Assembly (NCBI RefSeq): GCF_014522265.1
Contig: NZ_CP017024.1
Coordinates: 717,501-781,500, forward strand
DNA length: 64,000 nt
From: Pseudomonas oryzihabitans
GTDB taxonomy: Bacteria > Pseudomonadota > Gammaproteobacteria > Pseudomonadales > Pseudomonadaceae
Direction of reading: 5' to 3'
Position numbers and translations under genes: made by a program. The notes beneath the pieces were generated by a model. That model was given only the letters and a program-made list of their open reading frames with translations. It was not told the DNA's origin and ran no database searches. Of the stretch, positions 21,826 through 51,601 are shown piece by piece (the first letter of the stretch is position 1; the number at the start of each line of letters is the position of its first letter).

Positions 21826-22995
21826 TCAACGACGGCGGGCGGCCAGGAGCAGGACGGCAATGCCGGCCAGGGCGGACAGCAGCGACCCCAGCAGCACGCC
21901 GATCTTGACCTCGTCGACCAGGAAGGGCGCACCCGGAAAGGCCAGGGCACCAATGAACAGACTCATGGTAAAGCCAATGCCGCAGAGTAGCGCCACGCCA
22001 TAGAGCTGTAGCCAGCTGGCACCTTCGGGCAGTCGCGCCAGACCGCTGCGGATGGCCAGCACCGCCATCAGCGTGATGCCTACCTGCTTGCCGAGAAACA
22101 GCCCCAGGGTCACACCCAGCGGGACCGGATCCAGCAGGTTGGCGGGCGACATCCCGGCCAGGGACACCCCGGCATTGGCGAAGCCGAACAGGGGCACGAT
22201 CAGAAAGGCCACCCAGGGGTGCAGCGCGGACTCCAGCCGGAGCAGCGGCGAGGCATCGTCGGCCTCGGTATCGCCCAGCGGAATGAACAGCGCCAGGATC
22301 ACCCCGGCCAGGGTCGCATGGATGCCCGAGCGCAGCATGCAGAACCACAGCAGCGCCCCGACCAGCAGATAGGGCAGCAGGGCGGTGACCTTGAGGCGAT
22401 TGAGCAGGAACAGCACGGCCACCAGACCGGCCGCGGCCAGCAGCATGGTGGTGGAGAGGTCGCTGGTATAGAACAGCGCGATGATCAGCACGGCGCCGAG
22501 GTCATCGAGGATCGCCAGCGCCGAGAGAAACACCTTGAGCGATGCCGGCACCCGCGAACCCAGCAGCGACAGCACACCGAGGGCGAAGGCGATGTCGGTG
22601 GCGGCGGGAATGGCCCAGCCGGCGAGCGTCTGGGAGTCGTGGCGATTGACCAGGGCATAGAGCAGCGCCGGCACCAGCATGCCGCCCAGGGCGGCGAGAC
22701 CCGGCAGGGCGCGATCGCCCCAGCTGGCGAGTTGGCCGACCGCCATCTCGCGCTTGATCTCCAGCCCCACCAGCAGGAAGAAGATGGCCATCAGGCCGTC
22801 GTTGATCCAGTGACCGAGCGAAAGGCCACCCACATACCAGTGCAGACTGGCGAAATAGCCGTCGGCCAGCGGCGAGTTGGCGACGATGAGGGCGATGGCC
22901 GCGGCCACCATCAGCACGATACCGCCGGCCGCTTCGGCGGCGCAGAAGCGATTGAGAAAGGCCAGGGCCTTGGCGGGGGAAGGCAGAGGTGACAT
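21826..22995 (-). CDS. nhaA: Na+/H+ antiporter NhaA
   Basis: A 389-residue inner-membrane antiporter (E. coli NhaA has 388). The start [17 protein letters not shown] at 22995 matches the family; an upstream ATG would add an unusual 15 residues. The ion-binding Asp pair is in AILDDLGAV (Asp164, Asp165), and the family segments [20 protein letters not shown] and [17 protein letters not shown] are present. It exports sodium at alkaline pH. Followed 12 bases later by crcB, and divergent from the HPP-CBS gene. Confidence 0.96.
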
Positions 22996-23252
22996 GGGCA
23001 GCAGGACTCCGCGCGGCGGCCCGACCTGCGCTCGATTCAACCTGTCCTACCGCACGATTGCGGCGACACCCAGCCGATAATCCTACTACGGCAGCGCGGG
23101 TGGTCGCAGCAGAAAATCGCCTCACGGTGGCGGGCGCTCTGGGACGCCGCCTGGCCGCTTGCGGTGGCGGCCCGCGGTCTTCGCCGGTATTGCCAGGGCT
23201 CCGTACAGGGAGGACCATCAGCGCCCGCGTTCTGCCCAGCAGTTGCTAGCCC

Positions 23253-30794: not shown

Positions 30795-31445
30795 ATGAAT
30801 ACCCAACTCCTGCACGACGCCACCTTCTACATCCTCTATGGCTGCATCGCCCTGGCGCTGTTCATTGCCATCGAGCGTGGCCTGTTCTTCGCCTACACCC
30901 GTCGCCAGGCCAGGCACCTGGCCGAGGCCCTGATCCAGCGCGAGGTGCAGCAGAGCGGTCGGCTGCCAGCCGCCCTGGCCGAGCGACCCGGTCTGCCGGT
31001 CAACATGATCGAGCCGATCCTGGCCCAGCGCGGCCGGCTCGATCACCAGGCGCTGGAAGATCTGGTCGATACCCAGTACCTGGCCACCCGGGCACCCCTG
31101 GCGCGCAGCCTGTGGATCATCGAGACCATCACCACCGCCGCTCCGCTGCTGGGCCTGCTCGGTACCATCCTCGGCATCATCGACACCTTCAAGGCACTGG
31201 CCTCGGCCGGGGTGTCCGATCCGGGGCAGATCTCCGGTGGCATCGGCACGGCGCTGTTCGCCACCGGCCTGGGCATCGCCGTGGCTCTGCTTTGCGTGGT
31301 CTTCCATAATTTCTTCCAGGACCGCCAGGAGCGCATCAACGAACAGCTCAAGATCGTGCTGATCCGGGCACGTGGCGCCGCCAGCTCGCCTACCCAGGCC
31401 GAGCTGGCTGAAGACCTGTCGCCCACGCGGCTCCGTCAGGCTTGA
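30795..31445 (+). CDS. exbB: MotA/TolQ/ExbB proton channel protein
   Basis: A 216-residue inner-membrane protein with three helices: about 8-28, then after the cytoplasmic domain, 114-136 and 150-175. The signature ETITTAAPLLGLLGTILGIIDTF and the helix 3 GGIGTALFATGLGIAVALLCVVFHNFF with its conserved Thr are typical of ExbB/TolQ. It partners ExbD to drive TonB. It is unusual that the receptor gene separates it from exbD and tonB. It starts 14 bases after the receptor stop; a GC palindrome follows. Confidence 0.93.
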   Translation: MNTQLLHDATFYILYGCIALALFIAIERGLFFAYTRRQARHLAEALIQREVQQSGRLPAALAERPGLPVNMIEPILAQRGRLDHQALEDLVDTQYLATRAPLARSLWIIETITTAAPLLGLLGTILGIIDTFKALASAGVSDPGQISGGIGTALFATGLGIAVALLCVVFHNFFQDRQERINEQLKIVLIRARGAASSPTQAELAEDLSPTRLRQA

Positions 31446-31451
31446 GTCGAA

Positions 31452-31475
31452 GTCCTCGCGGCGCGCCGCGAGGAC
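31452..31475 (+). terminator. 24-base perfect palindrome after exbB
   Basis: A self-complementary sequence of GTCCTCGCGGC and GCCGCGAGGAC around a central GC, seven bases after the exbB stop. It would form a very stable hairpin and probably ends or stabilises the operon transcript. No T tract follows. Confidence 0.5.
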
Positions 31476-31502
31476 GCCCTACGCTGCTGCCGGAGGACCG
31501 CC

Positions 31503-32057
31503 ATGCTGCCGCAACCCAGCCTGCTCACCGAACGCCTGGCGCTACGTCCCTGCAGCGAGCGGGACGTACCTGCCCTGGTGACTCTGGCCGGCGACCCGCG
31601 TATCGCCGCCACCACCGGTACCCTGCCCCATCCCTACACCGAGGCGATCGCCCACCAGTGGCTCGCCACCCATGCACCGGGCTGGTCCACAGGTAGCCAA
31701 GCCCACTTCGCCATCGTCGACCGGACGCGCGACGATCTGCGCGGCGTTATCTCGCTGCGCCGCGATGGCCAGGATACGGCCAATATCGGCTACTGGATTG
31801 GCGTGCCCTCCTGGGGCCAGGGCCTGGCAACCGAAGCCTGCGCCGCCCTGATTGCCTTCGGCTTCGACCATTGGGCGCTGAGCGCCATCAACGGCCGCCA
31901 CCTGCCAGAGAATCCCGCCTCGGGGCGCGTACTGCTCAAGAACGGCTTTACGCTGCAGGGACAGGTCCGCGCCCTGTTCCCCATCCGTGGTGGTGAGGAG
32001 AAGCTGGACAGCTACCAGCTCACCCGCGAGCGCTGGCTGGCTCGTCTGCTGGATTGA
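31503..32057 (+). CDS. GNAT family N-acetyltransferase (RimJ/RimL type)
   Basis: A 184-residue acetyltransferase. The RimJ/L-like layout is clear: LLTERLALRPCSERDVPALVTLAGD at the start, GVISLRRDGQDTANIGYWIGVPSWGQGLATEACAALIAFGFD with the acetyl-CoA motif WGQGLATEA, and NPASGRVLLKNGFTLQG near the end. Such enzymes acetylate ribosomal proteins, other proteins or small molecules; the acceptor here is unknown. GGAGG-like sequence precedes the ATG. Confidence 0.9.
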   Translation: MLPQPSLLTERLALRPCSERDVPALVTLAGDPRIAATTGTLPHPYTEAIAHQWLATHAPGWSTGSQAHFAIVDRTRDDLRGVISLRRDGQDTANIGYWIGVPSWGQGLATEACAALIAFGFDHWALSAINGRHLPENPASGRVLLKNGFTLQGQVRALFPIRGGEEKLDSYQLTRERWLARLLD

Positions 32058-32131
32058 ATTCCCGCGCGACGCCTGGGGTCCCTTCTGGATCGGCAGGCCA
32101 ACCGCGGCCTGCGCCCCAAAGGAGAACGCTC

Positions 32132-33139
32132 ATGCACGCCATACGCCTACGCAAACCCGGTGGTCTGGACCAGCTGGAAGCCTGCGAACTGCCTGATCCC
32201 GGGCAGCCGGGGGCTGGTGAGATCCGGGTGCGGATCAAGGCCAGCTCGCTGAATTTCCATGACCTGGGCGTGGTGCTGGGCAAGATGCCGACCGCCGATG
32301 GGCGCATTCCCATGTCCGATGGCGCCGGCGTGGTCGAGGCCGTGGGCGCCGGGGTCAGCGAGTTCGCCGTGGGCGATCACGTGGTCTCGACCTTCTTTCC
32401 CCACTGGCTGGATGGCGAGCCGCCCATCGATGACTTTTCCACGACCCCTGGCGATGGCGTCGACGGCTTCGCCTGCGAGGTGGTGGTACGCCCGGCCACG
32501 GCCTTCACCCTGGCGCCCAAGGGCTACAGCCATGCCGAGGCGGCGACCCTGACCACCGCCGGACTCACCGCCTGGCGCGCCCTGGTGGTGGATGGCGGAC
32601 TCAAGGCCGGCGACAGCGTGCTGATCATGGGGACCGGCGGGGTGTCGATCTTCGCTCTGCAGATGGCCAAGGCCATGGGCGCCACGGTGATTGCCACCTC
32701 CTCCTCGGACGAGAAGCTGCAGCGCGCCTATGCCCTGGGCGCCGATCACCTGATCAATTATCGCGACGAACCGGAATGGGGTGCCAAGGTGCAGGCCATC
32801 ACCGGCGGCCGTGGCGTCGACATCGTGGTGGAAGTGGGCGGCCCGGCGACCCTGGCGCAGTCGATCCAGGCCGCGCGTATCCATGGTCACCTGGCGCTGA
32901 TCGGGGTGCTCACCGGCGTCGAGGGGCAAGTCCCCACGGCCAATCTGATGCGCCGCCATCAGCGGCTGCAGGGGCTGATCGTCGGCAGCCGTCGCCAGCA
33001 GCAGGAGATGATCAAGGCGCTGGAAGGCAACGGCATTAAGCCGGTCATCGATCGCAGTTATCCGCTAGACGAAATTGCCGCGGCCTTCGCCTTCCAGAAG
33101 GACGGCAGCCACTTCGGCAAGATCGTCCTGGAGTTCTAA
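32132..33139 (+). CDS. zinc-independent medium-chain dehydrogenase (quinone oxidoreductase-like)
   Basis: A 335-residue medium-chain dehydrogenase/reductase. The ATG at 32132 has AAGGAG seven bases upstream. GroES-like half: IRVRIKASSLNFHDLGVVLGKMP.. GVVEAVGAGVSEFAVGDHVV; Rossmann half: LIMGTGGVSIFALQMAKAMGATVIATSSSDEKLQ. The catalytic and structural zinc cysteines of classical alcohol dehydrogenases are missing, which places it with NADPH:quinone oxidoreductases/enoyl reductases. The substrate is unknown. The next gene is a response regulator preceded by a strong hairpin. Confidence 0.9.
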   Translation: MHAIRLRKPGGLDQLEACELPDPGQPGAGEIRVRIKASSLNFHDLGVVLGKMPTADGRIPMSDGAGVVEAVGAGVSEFAVGDHVVSTFFPHWLDGEPPIDDFSTTPGDGVDGFACEVVVRPATAFTLAPKGYSHAEAATLTTAGLTAWRALVVDGGLKAGDSVLIMGTGGVSIFALQMAKAMGATVIATSSSDEKLQRAYALGADHLINYRDEPEWGAKVQAITGGRGVDIVVEVGGPATLAQSIQAARIHGHLALIGVLTGVEGQVPTANLMRRHQRLQGLIVGSRRQQQEMIKALEGNGIKPVIDRSYPLDEIAAAFAFQKDGSHFGKIVLEF

Positions 33140-33183
33140 CAATGGTCAGACAAAAGCCGGACTGACGCCGGCAAGGCTCTGCT

Positions 33184-33220
33184 AGACTTCCGGAATCGTC
33201 TCGTCGCGTTCCGGAAGTCT
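33184..33220 (+). promoter_or_regulatory. hairpin sequestering the ribosome site of the receiver gene
   Basis: AGACTTCCGGAA at 33184-33195 and TTCCGGAAGTCT at 33209-33220 are perfect complements with a 13-base loop. The only Shine-Dalgarno-like sequence (GGAAG, 33213-33217) is inside the 3' arm, and the ATG follows two bases after the stem. In RNA this should block initiation; as DNA it is also a good dimeric operator. It may additionally end the upstream dehydrogenase transcript. Confidence 0.6.
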
Positions 33221-33222
33221 CG

Positions 33223-33615
33223 ATGACCTCGCCAGATCCCCTTCCCTATCTCGTCGTCATCGAAGACAACAGCCTGCTCGCCGAGCTGCTGAGCAACCAT
33301 CTCGAAGACCGCCTCTGCTGGACCTGTCGGCAGTTCGACAATGCCGACGATGCCCTGGTGCATCTGCTCCAGCAGCAGCAGGCTCCCGGGCTGGTAATCA
33401 CCGATCACCTGATGCCCGGCCAGCTGCGCGGCGGTGAATTGGCCGAAATGCTGCTCCAGCGCTGGCCCGCGCTGCCCATGGTCATCACCTCGGGCTATGG
33501 CTACGAGATCACCACGGCGCTGCCCCCGCAGGTGATCTTCCTGCAGAAGCCCTGGACGCTCGATGAGGTGGATTCGGCGGTACGCCTCGCACGCGCGCGT
33601 CAGGCGGGCGGTTAG
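33223..33615 (+). CDS. single-domain response regulator
   Basis: A 130-residue stand-alone receiver protein, with no output domain. Acidic pocket Glu14-Asp15 in VVIEDNSLLAE, phospho-acceptor Asp61 in LVITDHLMPG, the Thr/Ser in VITSGYG and the Lys in FLQKPW. It is tail to tail with a second receiver gene, the stop codons overlapping, and both lie beside a hybrid kinase. It may act as a phosphate shuttle or sink. Its start is buried in a hairpin, which suggests translational control. Confidence 0.9.
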   Translation: MTSPDPLPYLVVIEDNSLLAELLSNHLEDRLCWTCRQFDNADDALVHLLQQQQAPGLVITDHLMPGQLRGGELAEMLLQRWPALPMVITSGYGYEITTALPPQVIFLQKPWTLDEVDSAVRLARARQAGG

Positions 33616-33995
33616 ACGCCCAGCTGGCCGCAGGCCTTCAGCAACTGGTCGATGGTCCAGGGCTTGGGCAGGAACAGCGCCCGGTCTTCGCGTTCGGCGT
33701 ACTGCTGTCCGGTATAGCCGGACGACACCAGTATCGGCAACTGCGGAAAACGTTGGCGGACCTGTTTGGCCAGGGCGAGACCATCCAGCCGACCGGGCAT
33801 GCGCACGTCGGTGAAGAGGAGATCAGGCGGCAGCGGGTCGGCTTCGAACCAGCACCAGGCGGCATCGGCGGTGTCGAACGACTGGACGGCATAACCCTCC
33901 ATCTCGAACACCTCCGTCGCCAGCGATCGCAGTACAGGATCGTCCTCGACCACCAGCACAGTGGTAACGGCTGCGGAAGAAACTACATCGGTCAT
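33612..33995 (-). CDS. single-domain response regulator
   Basis: A 127-residue receiver protein. Acidic pocket Glu-Asp-Asp in LVVEDDPVLRSL, phospho-acceptor Asp63 in LFTDVRMPG, Ser/Thr in LVSSGYTG and Lys in FLPKPWTID. It resembles the receiver that ends hybrid kinases of the neighbouring type. It is convergent with the other receiver, overlapping by four bases, and divergent from the hybrid kinase at 34240, with a 244-base AT-rich gap holding both promoters. The likely partner is that kinase, by position only. Confidence 0.9.
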   Translation of the reverse strand: MTDVVSSAAVTTVLVVEDDPVLRSLATEVFEMEGYAVQSFDTADAAWCWFEADPLPPDLLFTDVRMPGRLDGLALAKQVRQRFPQLPILVSSGYTGQQYAEREDRALFLPKPWTIDQLLKACGQLGV

Positions 33996-34239
33996 GGCAA
34001 CGCTACTTCATTAGTACGACTAAATAGACCGAAATTACTCGAATTGGATCACAACCCTCGGATGGACGGCTGGCCGCTTGGTACCGGCACTTGTCTGATG
34101 CCGTAACGGCTACTTAATTCCCTGCCTGTCGGAAAAAGGTGCTGGCAGATCGCTAGCCGGCGCCCGACTCTCTTACTCTAAGGCTCTTGCTGGACGTCAT
34201 TGGCGTCCGCTTCCGCTGCCCACGCGCTTGAAAGATCCC

Positions 34240-37200
34240 ATGGCTGAATCCGCTCCCTCCTACGCTGAACTCCAGGCCGAAGTCCGCCGCCTCCGCGCCG
34301 CGCTCGACCAGTGCACCGCGCTGCCACCCCAGGACGCCCAGCGGCGCCTGGCGATCTTCGATGGCGCCATCGATTTCGCCATGGTCGTACTGGATCCGGC
34401 CGGGGTCATCACCGACTGGAACACCGGCGCCGAGCGCCTGCTGGGCTGGACCGCCACGGAGATCCGCGGCGCCCCGGCAGAGTGCTTCTTCACCCCGGAA
34501 GACAACCGGAACGGCCGGGCCGCGCTGGAAATGCGGCTGGCGCTGCAGGACGGTCGCGCCGAAGACGAACGCTGGCACCTGCGACGCGACGGCACCCGCT
34601 TCTGGGCCAGCGGCGAGATGCATCCGCTGCACGACGACGCCGGCCGCCATACCGGCTTCGTCAAGATCCTGCGCGACCGCACCCCCCAGCACCTGGCCGG
34701 CGAGGCCCTGCGTGACAGCCAGCGCCACGTCGGCGAGGTGCAGCGGCAACTGGCGGAGAGCGAGCGCTACTGGCGCGGCCTGTTCGAGCAACTGGACGAG
34801 GGCTTCATCCTTGGCACCATCCTGCGTGATGACCAGGGCCATGGCCGGGACTGGCGCTATGACCAGGTCAACCGCGCCTGGTGCACCCACTTCGGCCTGA
34901 GCGCGGAACAGACGATCGGCCAGACAGCCCGCACCCTGTTTCCCGAACTCGAAGACCTCTGGGTGGAGGATTTCACCCGGGTGGTAGATACCGGCCAGTC
35001 GTTCAGTTACGTGCGGCAATTCCAGTTCAACGGCCGCTGGTACGAAGGCCATGCGCACAAGGCTGGCCCGGACAGCTTTCTGGTGCTGTTCCTGGATGTC
35101 ACCGAGCGCGAGCAGGCCGCCCAGGCCACCCGTGACGAAGAGCGCTATCGCCGCGCCCTGGCGGAGTTGGGCGAAGGCTTCAGCCAGCTGAACGACATCG
35201 AGGCGGTCACCGAACTCGCCTGCACCGCCCTGGGCACCATCCTGAATGCCCATCTGGTGGGCTACGGTCTGGTGGACGCCGAGACCGAGACCATCACCGT
35301 GGAACGCGACTGGACGATCCCGGGCGCCCGCAGCCTGATGGGCACGCTGAATTTTCGCGACTACGGCAGCTACAGCGAGGCCTTCAAGCGCGGCGAAACC
35401 GTGGTGATCGAGGACGTGCAGCAAGACCCTCGTACCCGTGACAACCTCGCGGCCCTGCAACGCCTGGAGACCCGCGCCCTCGTCAACCTGCCGCTGTTCG
35501 AGCACGGCAACCTGGTGGCCCTGCTCTATGTCTGTTCCAGTCAGCCGCGGCGCTGGACGCCGGCCGAGCTGCAGTTCATACGCGAGGTCGCCAATCGCAC
35601 CCGCTCGGCCACGGCGCGACTGACCGCGGAACGTGCCTTGCGCGACAGCGAACTCAATCTGCGCCTGGTGGCCGACACCCTGCCCTGCCTGATCGCCTTC
35701 GTCGATCGCGACCTGATCTATCGCTTCGCCAATATCGAGGCGCCCAAGTGGTTCAGGGACGCGCCGCAGAGCATCCTGGGCCGCAGCATGGCCGAGGTGT
35801 TCGCGCCGGAACTGTTCGCCGCCCGGCGTCCGGCCATCCAGGCCGCCCTGGACGGTACCCCGGCGCGACTGGACCTGCCGTGGGCCTGGCCGGATGGCCG
35901 CCGGCGCATCGCCGACATCCACTACCGCCCACGGCGCGATGCGCGCGGTGCGGTGGACGGCTTCTATGTCTTCGCCCAGGACGTCACCATCCAGCGCGAC
36001 GCCCAGGCGCTGATCCAGGCGCAGAATCTCAGCCTCAGCCAGGAGGTCCAGGCCCGTACCGCCGAGCGCGACCGGCTCTGGGCGCTCAGCGAAGACCTGC
36101 TGCTCACCGCCGACTTCACCGGGCAGCTCCTGCGGGTGAGTCCGTCCTGGTCGCGCGGCCTGGGCTATTCCGAGGCCGAGTTGCTCAGCCGCCCTTACAC
36201 CGAACTCATCCATCCCGATGATCTGCCCGGCGTGCTGATGGCGCTGGACGAACTGCGCCGCAGCGGCCTGCCGGCGCGGGTGGAGAATCGCGTCCAGGCG
36301 GCGGACGGCAGCTGGCGCTGGCTGTCCTGGACGCTGTCGATGGACACCGAACAGGATCGCCTCACCGGCGCCGGGCGCGACATCACCCGGGAAAAGGACG
36401 CCGCGGAAACCCAGGCGCTGCTGGAAGAGCAGTTGCGCCAGTCGCAGAAGATGGAAGCGGTCGGCCAACTCACCGGCGGCCTGGCCCACGACTTCAACAA
36501 CCTGCTCGCCGGTATCGTCGGCAGTCTGGACCTGCTCACGGTGCGCATCGGCCAGGGTCGGCTGAACAATCTCGAGCGCTACACCACCGCCGCCCAGGGC
36601 GCCGCCATTCGCGCCGCCGCCCTGACCCACCGGCTGCTGGCCTTTTCCCGCCGGCAGACGCTGGACCCCAAGCCCACCGACGTCAATCGCCTGGTGGCCG
36701 GCATGGAAGACCTGATCCGCCGCACGGTGGGGCCGGCGATCCAGATCGAGGTGGTGGCCAGCAGCGAGCTGTGGTCGACCCTGGTCGATCCGCCGCAGCT
36801 GGAAAACGCCCTGCTCAATCTCTGCATCAACGCCCGCGACGCCATGCCCGAGGGCGGCCGGATCTTCATCGAGACCGCCAATCGGGCGCTGGATGCGCGC
36901 ATGGGCCGGGTCCGCGACCTGGACCCGGGCGACTACATCGCCCTCTCGGTGACCGACAACGGCTGCGGCATGCCGCCCGAGGTGATTGCCAAGGCCTTCG
37001 ACCCCTTCTTCACCACCAAGCCGATCGGGGTGGGCACCGGGCTGGGCCTGTCGATGATCTACGGCTTCGTGCGCCAGTCCGGCGGCCAGGCACGCATCCA
37101 TTCCCAGGTCGATCAGGGCACCAGCGTCACCCTCTTCCTGCCGCGCCATCGCGAAGTGGCCACTGGCGTTGACCTCGCCGCCAGCCAGCCGACCCTGCCG

Positions 37201-37581
37201 CGCCAGGGCCACGGCGAAACGGTGCTGGTGGTGGATGACGAACCCACGGTGCGGATGCTGGTGGTGGAGGTGCTGGAAGAACTGGGCTACGCCGCCCTGG
37301 AAGCGGCGGATGCCAGCTCCGGGCTGCGCCTGCTGGAATCCGATGTGCGCATCGACCTGCTGATCAGCGATGTCGGCCTGCCTGGCGGGATGAACGGCCG
37401 GCAGATGGCCGATGCCGCCCGCCAGCGCCGCCCCGGACTCAAGGTGCTGTTCATCACCGGCTACGCCGAAAACGCCGTGGTCGGCAACGGCCACCTGGAG
37501 CCCGGCATGCACGTGATGACCAAGCCCTTCGCCATGGACGCCCTGGCGGTGCGCATTCGCGATCTGATCGTAGGGACCTGA
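34240..37581 (+). CDS. multi-PAS/GAF hybrid histidine kinase
   Basis: A 1113-residue cytoplasmic sensor kinase with no membrane helix. Order: PAS (about 30-150), PAS (165-285), GAF (305-460), PAS (470-590), PAS (615-720), HisKA with His750 in [16 protein letters not shown], HATPase (about 840-970; N, G1 and G2 boxes [31 protein letters not shown]), then a C-terminal receiver with acceptor Asp1044 in [11 protein letters not shown]. The ATG at 34240 is used in preference to a nearby upstream TTG. The signal is unknown. Separate receiver genes upstream suggest an extended phosphorelay. Confidence 0.93.
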
Positions 37582-51042: not shown

Positions 51043-51062
51043 CCTGGGGTTGGTTTGGTTCG

Positions 51063-51088
51063 AAAAAGGCGCCTCAGGGCGCCTTTTT
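51063..51088. terminator. intrinsic terminator of ilvE (bidirectional)
   Basis: AAAAAGGCGCC at 51063-51073 pairs with GGCGCCTTTTT at 51078-51088 over a 4-base loop, 20 bases after the ilvE stop. The stem is perfect and both strands end in T runs. Confidence 0.95.
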
Positions 51089-51601
51089 CGTTGGAGAAGG
51101 GGTTGGCGGTAGGTTGGGTTGAGCGCAAGCGAAGCCCAACGCCAAAGGCACGGCGTAGGTTGGCGCTGAGCGCAAGCGAAGTCCAACGGATTGCGGTTAG
51201 GGTTATAGGTGCCCTAGCTATTTATCGCGATCTGTTCGTGGCTCTTGTTTCGCCCACCCGGGCGACTCACTTTTTTCAATCGCGAAAAAAGTAAGCAAAA
51301 ACGCTTGCCCCGACCATCCGGCCCTACGCTTCGCTCCGGGTCCGCTCACGCCAGCGCCGTTCCGGGGTCGGCCTACACGGGCCGTCCATGGCCCGTTAGG
51401 CCTCTCGCCGCATCCATGCGGCTCGACCCACTCCACGACACTGGCGTTCACCCTGCTGAACGGGGCGATTCGCCAGCCTGAAAGTATTGGTGGAAGGACC
51501 TGTAGCGTGGACAACGGCGAAGCCTTGTCCACTTTTCGCGGTCAAGCACATCAGTGGAAAACGCTGCGCGGTTTTCCACGCTACGCCTTGACTCTACTGG
51601 A

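Follow-up and report, generated by a model that had tools for sequence, protein, structure and literature searches.

A hairpin at the start of a receiver gene

Why should the ribosome-binding site of a small receiver gene lie inside a perfect hairpin? The gene is found in a 64,000-nucleotide stretch of the Pseudomonas oryzihabitans chromosome (NZ_CP017024.1, positions 717,501 to 781,500; hereafter the window, whose numbering is used unless a locus is named). Its surroundings are as follows:

32132-33139, + strand: zinc-type alcohol dehydrogenase/quinone reductase (PF00107, PF08240), presumed source of read-through
33223-33615, + strand: stand-alone receiver of 130 aa (PF00072, E 1.7e-11)
33612-33995, - strand: second stand-alone receiver, convergent, with a 4-nt overlap (ORF, Pfam)
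34228-37581, + strand: hybrid PAS/GAF histidine kinase (ORF, Pfam)

PF00072 is the only Pfam family found in the first receiver at E 0.001, with no output domain. Gene position suggests a partnership between the kinase and the two receivers. A gene for a GNAT acetyltransferase also lies upstream, on the same strand as the receiver.

The hairpin consists of the following parts:

33184-33195, + strand: 5' arm, AGACTTCCGGAA (sequence, folding)
33196-33208, + strand: loop, 13 nt here and 13-16 nt across ten leaders
33209-33220, + strand: 3' arm, TTCCGGAAGTCT, bearing the ribosome-binding site (sequence, folding)
33213-33217, + strand: Shine-Dalgarno-like GGAAG, whose GGA is kept by all ten leaders

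The arms are 100% complementary and form a perfect 12-bp inverted repeat around the 13-nt loop. The 3' arm is followed by CG and then by the receiver ATG at 33223, leaving a gap of 2 nt, and GGAAG is the only Shine-Dalgarno-like stretch seen upstream of this start codon. An earlier, sequence-only reading of this DNA had described a perfect 12-bp stem over GGAAG that ends two nucleotides before the ATG, which the sequence confirms. It had also called the hairpin unusually clean for the window. Such stems are indeed unlikely to arise by chance, as the window contains eight perfect stems of at least 12 bp (loops of 3-20 nt), whereas 60 simulated first-order Markov sequences average 0.2 with a maximum of 1. 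However, seven of the eight are further stems that equal or exceed the receiver hairpin in length, so the description was overstated. Judged from the immediate flanks of these seven, the stem at 51061-51090 resembles a two-way terminator.

The 111 nt from 33150 to 33260 fold with an energy of -38.3 kcal/mol (z = -2.62), and one of 200 shuffles was as good or better. The full repeat with its 13-nt spacing has a single occurrence in the 5.05-Mb genome with up to three mismatches allowed, which rules out an element of a repeat family. A plasmid search gave no match.

Ten of the 13 genus genomes contain an orthologue of the receiver (72-100% identity). These ten, and no genome of another genus, were recovered when 298 family genomes were searched at E 1e-35. 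Among the 80 of 460 loci kept, seven reach at least 70% identity and the rest at most 50%; named relatives in this set put the group close to P. oryzihabitans and P. rhizoryzae. The dehydrogenase has the same distribution (10 of 13) and precedes the receiver on the same strand in all ten, its stop codon being separated from the receiver ATG by 65-85 nt. Each of the ten leaders is predicted to fold the hairpin (-15.2 to -26.5 kcal/mol) with both G of GGA paired. Pairing is imperfect, through mismatches or a bulge, in leaders L005, L007 and L008, and L007 leaves the A of GGA unpaired. The hairpin region is read as a conserved regulatory element.

A predicted promoter within the 5' arm

The decisive miss of the sequence-only reading appears to be a promoter that overlaps the 5' arm:

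33180-33188, + strand: predicted extended -10 promoter element TGCTAGACT, with no recognisable -35 (conservation, genome motif positions)
33195, + strand: predicted transcription start A33195, 7 nt past the -10 (from the usual -10 to +1 spacing)

By sequence, TGCTAGACT runs into the 5' arm of the hairpin. In the orientation-correct alignment, leader conservation begins five to seven bases 5' of the stem. All ten orthologous leaders share the motif CTGCTAnnCT without change. The 26 columns immediately before it, some of them gapped, include one that is invariant among the eight closer leaders and none that is invariant among all ten. Five invariant columns (33179-33183) precede the window's stem, so the constraint there is unexplained by a pure hairpin. 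The seventh position after the -10 is A in all ten leaders and is here the last base of the 5' arm. Transcription therefore probably starts near A33195, at the end of that arm, as read from these sequence features. A standard promoter scan found nothing at this site, because it demands a -35.

Support for the promoter comes from the rest of the genome, in which TGCTANACT occurs at 17 sites. At ten of these, the receiver site included, a same-strand start codon follows 33-45 nt from the first base of TGCTANACT, with start codons chosen by reading and the band fixed after the distances were seen. The ORFs at the ten in-band sites span 82-491 codons, some being cut at the locus end. Assuming 4,600 genes, 0.006 would be expected per site in this post hoc band, and the chance of finding nine of the 16 other sites within it is about 1e-16. 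With the band widened to 1-100 nt, where 0.046 would be expected per site, the other 16 sites contribute at least 12 (hand arithmetic).

Five of the downstream ORFs were compared with a family library. Those at L173 and L175 score as exonuclease I and RsgA; both exceed the curated cut-off, and the matches begin at residues 2 and 1, respectively. The ORF at L172 scores as Uup with a match beginning at residue 1 or 2, although below the cut-off because the ORF is cut by the locus end. The remaining two gave weak matches, including YciC for L178. Outside the band, start codons lie at +64 (or +10, same frame) in L182, +81 in L188 and +96 in L177; the site in L186 falls inside a coding frame, and for L176 and L181 the scanned range contains no start of an ORF of the set length. 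Overall, TGCTANACT appears to behave as a promoter word in the P. oryzihabitans genome.

A further site out of the band lies in L184, near position 1518, where the start of a short ORF follows that of TGCTACACT by about 17 nt; this ORF ends early. By eye, a one-base shift in a C run could account for the early end, whether through sequencing error or a real frameshift.

PMC5650638 gives KCTAYRCTTAA as a sigma-S-type or extended -10 consensus. Here, GCTAGACTT agrees with KCTAYRCTT at 8 of 9 positions and with the full KCTAYRCTTAA at 8 of 11, and like such promoters the site has no recognisable -35. Unlike sigma-S-type promoters, however, TGCTANACT also precedes RsgA and exonuclease I. Both have the look of housekeeping genes, and for the receiver promoter sigma-70 acting through an extended -10 is therefore judged at least as likely as sigma-S.

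Two predicted transcripts with different leaders

A promoter in this place would give the hairpin a different fate in each of two transcripts. The 42-bp element could quite possibly combine a promoter with an RNA insulator against read-through. With the -10 element overlapping the DNA for the 5' arm and transcription beginning at the last base of that arm, the receiver's own mRNA would have a leader of about 28 nt that lacks the 5' arm. It would thus be unable to form the hairpin, and its ribosome site would be much more accessible. RNA entering from the dehydrogenase would hold both arms and close the 12-bp stem over the ribosome site. Such read-through RNA would not be translated for the receiver, which would be made solely from its own promoter, independently of the upstream gene. 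The start site, the existence of read-through and the translational block are what we infer here.

Two proposals of the sequence-only reading take on a new form under this model. Sequestration of the ribosome site is predicted for RNA that enters from upstream, but not for the receiver's own transcript, which would begin without the 5' arm. Coupling to the dehydrogenase transcript survives in inverted form, as the hairpin would uncouple the receiver from that transcript. A transcript start inside the hairpin, which had been named as evidence against a regulatory role for it, is predicted for the own transcript (~33195).

Folding models are consistent with this division. In all ten leaders, freeing GGAn is predicted to cost 6.8-13.3 kcal/mol in read-through RNA versus 0.3-2.9 kcal/mol in the own transcript. 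For the stretch from GGA through AUG, the modelled costs are 11.6-21.1 and 5.9-12.4 kcal/mol, respectively, the latter remaining high because a second helix over the start codon persists. This helix (33221-33262) is predicted in both transcript types and pairs the start-codon region with the downstream VVIE codons. GGA can also pair in weaker structures of the modelled own transcript, with a probability of up to 0.99 in L011. The pairing between -10 region and ribosome site amounts to -21.2 kcal/mol here, compared with -2.6 to -9.8 kcal/mol at 12 other candidate promoters.

Read-through across the element would be compatible with the gene order, as the upstream gene lies on the same strand. 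None of the ten leaders has TTTT in the interval from the dehydrogenase stop to the receiver ATG, and a + strand terminator scan of 33000-33300 found none. An intrinsic terminator was likewise rejected for the hairpin itself, whose stem is followed by CGATGACC without a T-run. Yet no promoter was found upstream of the dehydrogenase by a consensus scan of 31400-32160, a scan that also misses the receiver promoter. The distance from the dehydrogenase stop to the stem is 44 nt here and 23-44 nt across the ten leaders, so ribosomes terminating on the dehydrogenase would probably leave the stem closed.

The same position raises the question of whether the hairpin acts on the dehydrogenase mRNA, stabilising its 3' end or marking a processing site, with no role in translation of the receiver. 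A stable stem at this distance past the stop in all ten leaders, with no + strand terminator found in the gap, would suit such a role. However, there is no T-run behind the stem, and the spacing from GGA to ATG holds steady at 6-7 nt while the distance to the dehydrogenase stop shifts from 44 to 23 nt. This explanation is considered improbable.

Two other features were observed in the gap between dehydrogenase and receiver. On the - strand, 33156-33172 forms a terminator-like hairpin with TTTT, whose stem is by eye lost in L003; antisense RNA coming from the second receiver through the first might terminate there. Just past the dehydrogenase stop, GTCAGAC (33145-33151) is exact in six of ten leaders, with the variants GTCGGAT in L008, ATCAGAC in L009 and GTCATAC in L010 and L011, where the gap is 21 nt shorter.

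Thermometers and riboregulators

Hairpins over ribosome sites are also familiar from RNA thermometers such as ROSE and FourU, in which the ribosome site lies in a stem. The receiver resembles them in this respect, and the sequence-only reading had proposed a thermometer or a riboregulator on the receiver's own transcript. However, when transcripts with both arms were folded at seven modelled temperatures from 20 to 70 C, GGAAG stayed paired with a probability of about 1.0 throughout. The closed 12-bp stem thus differs from those of ROSE and FourU, and a thermometer is ruled out in the model. For a known riboswitch or other Rfam cis-regulator, no match above the gathering score was found at the hairpin, the sole Rfam match in the window being an nhaA-I RNA some 10 kb away. 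Moreover, the predicted start would remove the 5' arm from the very transcript on which a ligand-binding riboregulator would act. Regulation of either kind is very improbable.

The nhaA-I RNA itself (RF03057, 46 bits) is located at 23012-23071 on the - strand and adjoins a minus-strand ORF at 21826-23040.

RNA pairing or a DNA site

If pairing of the RNA is what matters, compensatory changes between the arms might be visible among the orthologues. Some variants are suggestive. In L009, a longer T run in the 5' arm is accompanied by an extra A in the 3' arm, giving a 13-bp stem, although L008 has the same 5'-arm change without the 3' half. In L010 and L011, AGC replaces the GAC of the other 5' arms, and their 3' arms read GCT after a bulged C. 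With columns fixed by MAFFT, RNAalifold on the ten leaders found a two-sided change in 0 of 11 pairs, and the 12-bp stem has 0 of 12. In this stem, 83.2% of cells are paired versus 83.4% in shuffled controls, and the covariation score of 0.070 lies below the shuffled 0.087; sliding the partners by +1 gave three two-sided pairs. An arm-swap permutation favoured cognate arms at p = 0.0011, a value without correction for kinship. The 5' arms of L010 and L011 reach -16.6 kcal/mol with five of the eight other 3' arms versus -15.8 kcal/mol with their own. Evidence for selection at the RNA level is mixed: with no in-register covariation, an RNA function stays a prediction, and selection on RNA pairing rather than on a DNA site is likewise something we infer.

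The DNA reading starts from a palindrome in each arm:

33188-33195: first TTCCGGAA palindrome, possible operator half
33209-33216: second TTCCGGAA palindrome, another candidate operator half, its centre 21 bp from that of the first

These two sites, one over the -10 and start and the other over the ribosome site, may bind a putative repressor, with the hairpin as a by-product. The dyad operator of the sequence-only reading is a live rival in this form, and we regard it as possible but somewhat doubtful. The main argument in its favour is that the 8-bp palindrome in each arm is unneeded for RNA pairing. A paired site around +1 is a classic position for a repressor, and the two palindromes match this placement. 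TTCCGGA is also invariant in the 3' arm of the ten leaders, with a near form kept in the 5' arm, and the missing in-register covariation fits a sequence site as well as it fits RNA.

The distribution of the pair across genomes can be set on either side. Within the genus, 6 of 13 genomes contain an exact TTCCGGAA pair, and in each the receiver leader is its only place. However, the pair is found in nine of 398 family genomes, six at the receiver locus and three as single places in another genus, and a reversed control pattern matched more genomes (30). It is unique in its own genome and shows no sign of a regulon, although a dedicated single-target regulator would be compatible with this. A multi-gene operator was rejected, as the same paired site does not precede other genes in this genome or in the genus. 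Nine loci with other receivers of the genus (six distinct regions) have no TTCCGGAA.

Of 41 single TTCCGGAA sites in the genome, 36 were flagged as coding by an ORF/GC3 heuristic, two of which belong to the receiver leader and were flagged via an antisense ORF only; among the other 39, 34 were flagged as coding and five were not. Furthermore, Pfam finds no DNA-binding domain in either receiver, and the -10 flank is constrained outside the palindromes. Because the spacer length ranges over 13-16 nt, the palindromes do not keep to one face of the helix. The read-through insulator and the DNA operator are not exclusive, and both could hold together.

As a separate observation, TTCCGGAA is rare in this genome, with 41 sites compared with 209 for the reversed word. 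A search for it together with Pseudomonas in the open-licence PMC literature returned only seemingly unrelated work.

Relation to known systems

To our knowledge, long transcripts that pass through a gene without being decoded are familiar mainly from T4-like phages. In the insulator model, the receiver would join them from a bacterial chromosome.

In phage T4, gene e (lysozyme), along with soc, 49 and I-TevI, has a hairpin that blocks translation and that a promoter located in the hairpin's 5' strand circumvents (PMC3014915, PMC2988022). Long RNAs from upstream fold this hairpin over the ribosome site. For e and I-TevI, the 5' strand is missing from the transcript made at the gene's own promoter; ribosome-site sequestration is also given as the regulation of soc and others (PMC2988022). 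The receiver is alike in two respects: the ribosome site is predicted to be paired in longer upstream RNA in 10 of 10 leaders, and a promoter lies, by sequence, within the DNA for the 5' strand. It differs in that the T4 genes use phage late promoters for timing and are backed by experimental evidence, whereas the receiver is a chromosomal gene with an extended -10 promoter that is predicted only. By this analogy, the receiver hairpin is likely a new case of the arrangement at T4 gene e.

Tentatively, then, a chromosomal gene with a conserved promoter-in-arm hairpin may render every message initiated upstream untranslatable, insulating the receiver from a metabolic gene. Narrower searches for cases of read-through with sequestration, or of undecoded transcripts, found none in open-licence PMC, and a chromosomal precedent may exist in print. 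No start sites for P. oryzihabitans were found in the same literature.

If true, this shows a way for a gene in a compact same-strand cluster to be shielded from its neighbour by control of translation, with no terminator required, through a promoter set in the arm of a ribosome-site hairpin. The arrangement also provides a signature that can be searched for in other genomes, namely a -10 element complementary to the flank of a ribosome site. For ribosome-site hairpins more generally, it would be advisable to look for a promoter in the 5' arm before naming a thermometer or riboswitch.

Elsewhere in the genus, a paralogous module (L048, 1827-4845) combines a hybrid kinase with two stand-alone receivers, without TTCCGGAA. 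The ORF beside this module is presumably transposase-like.
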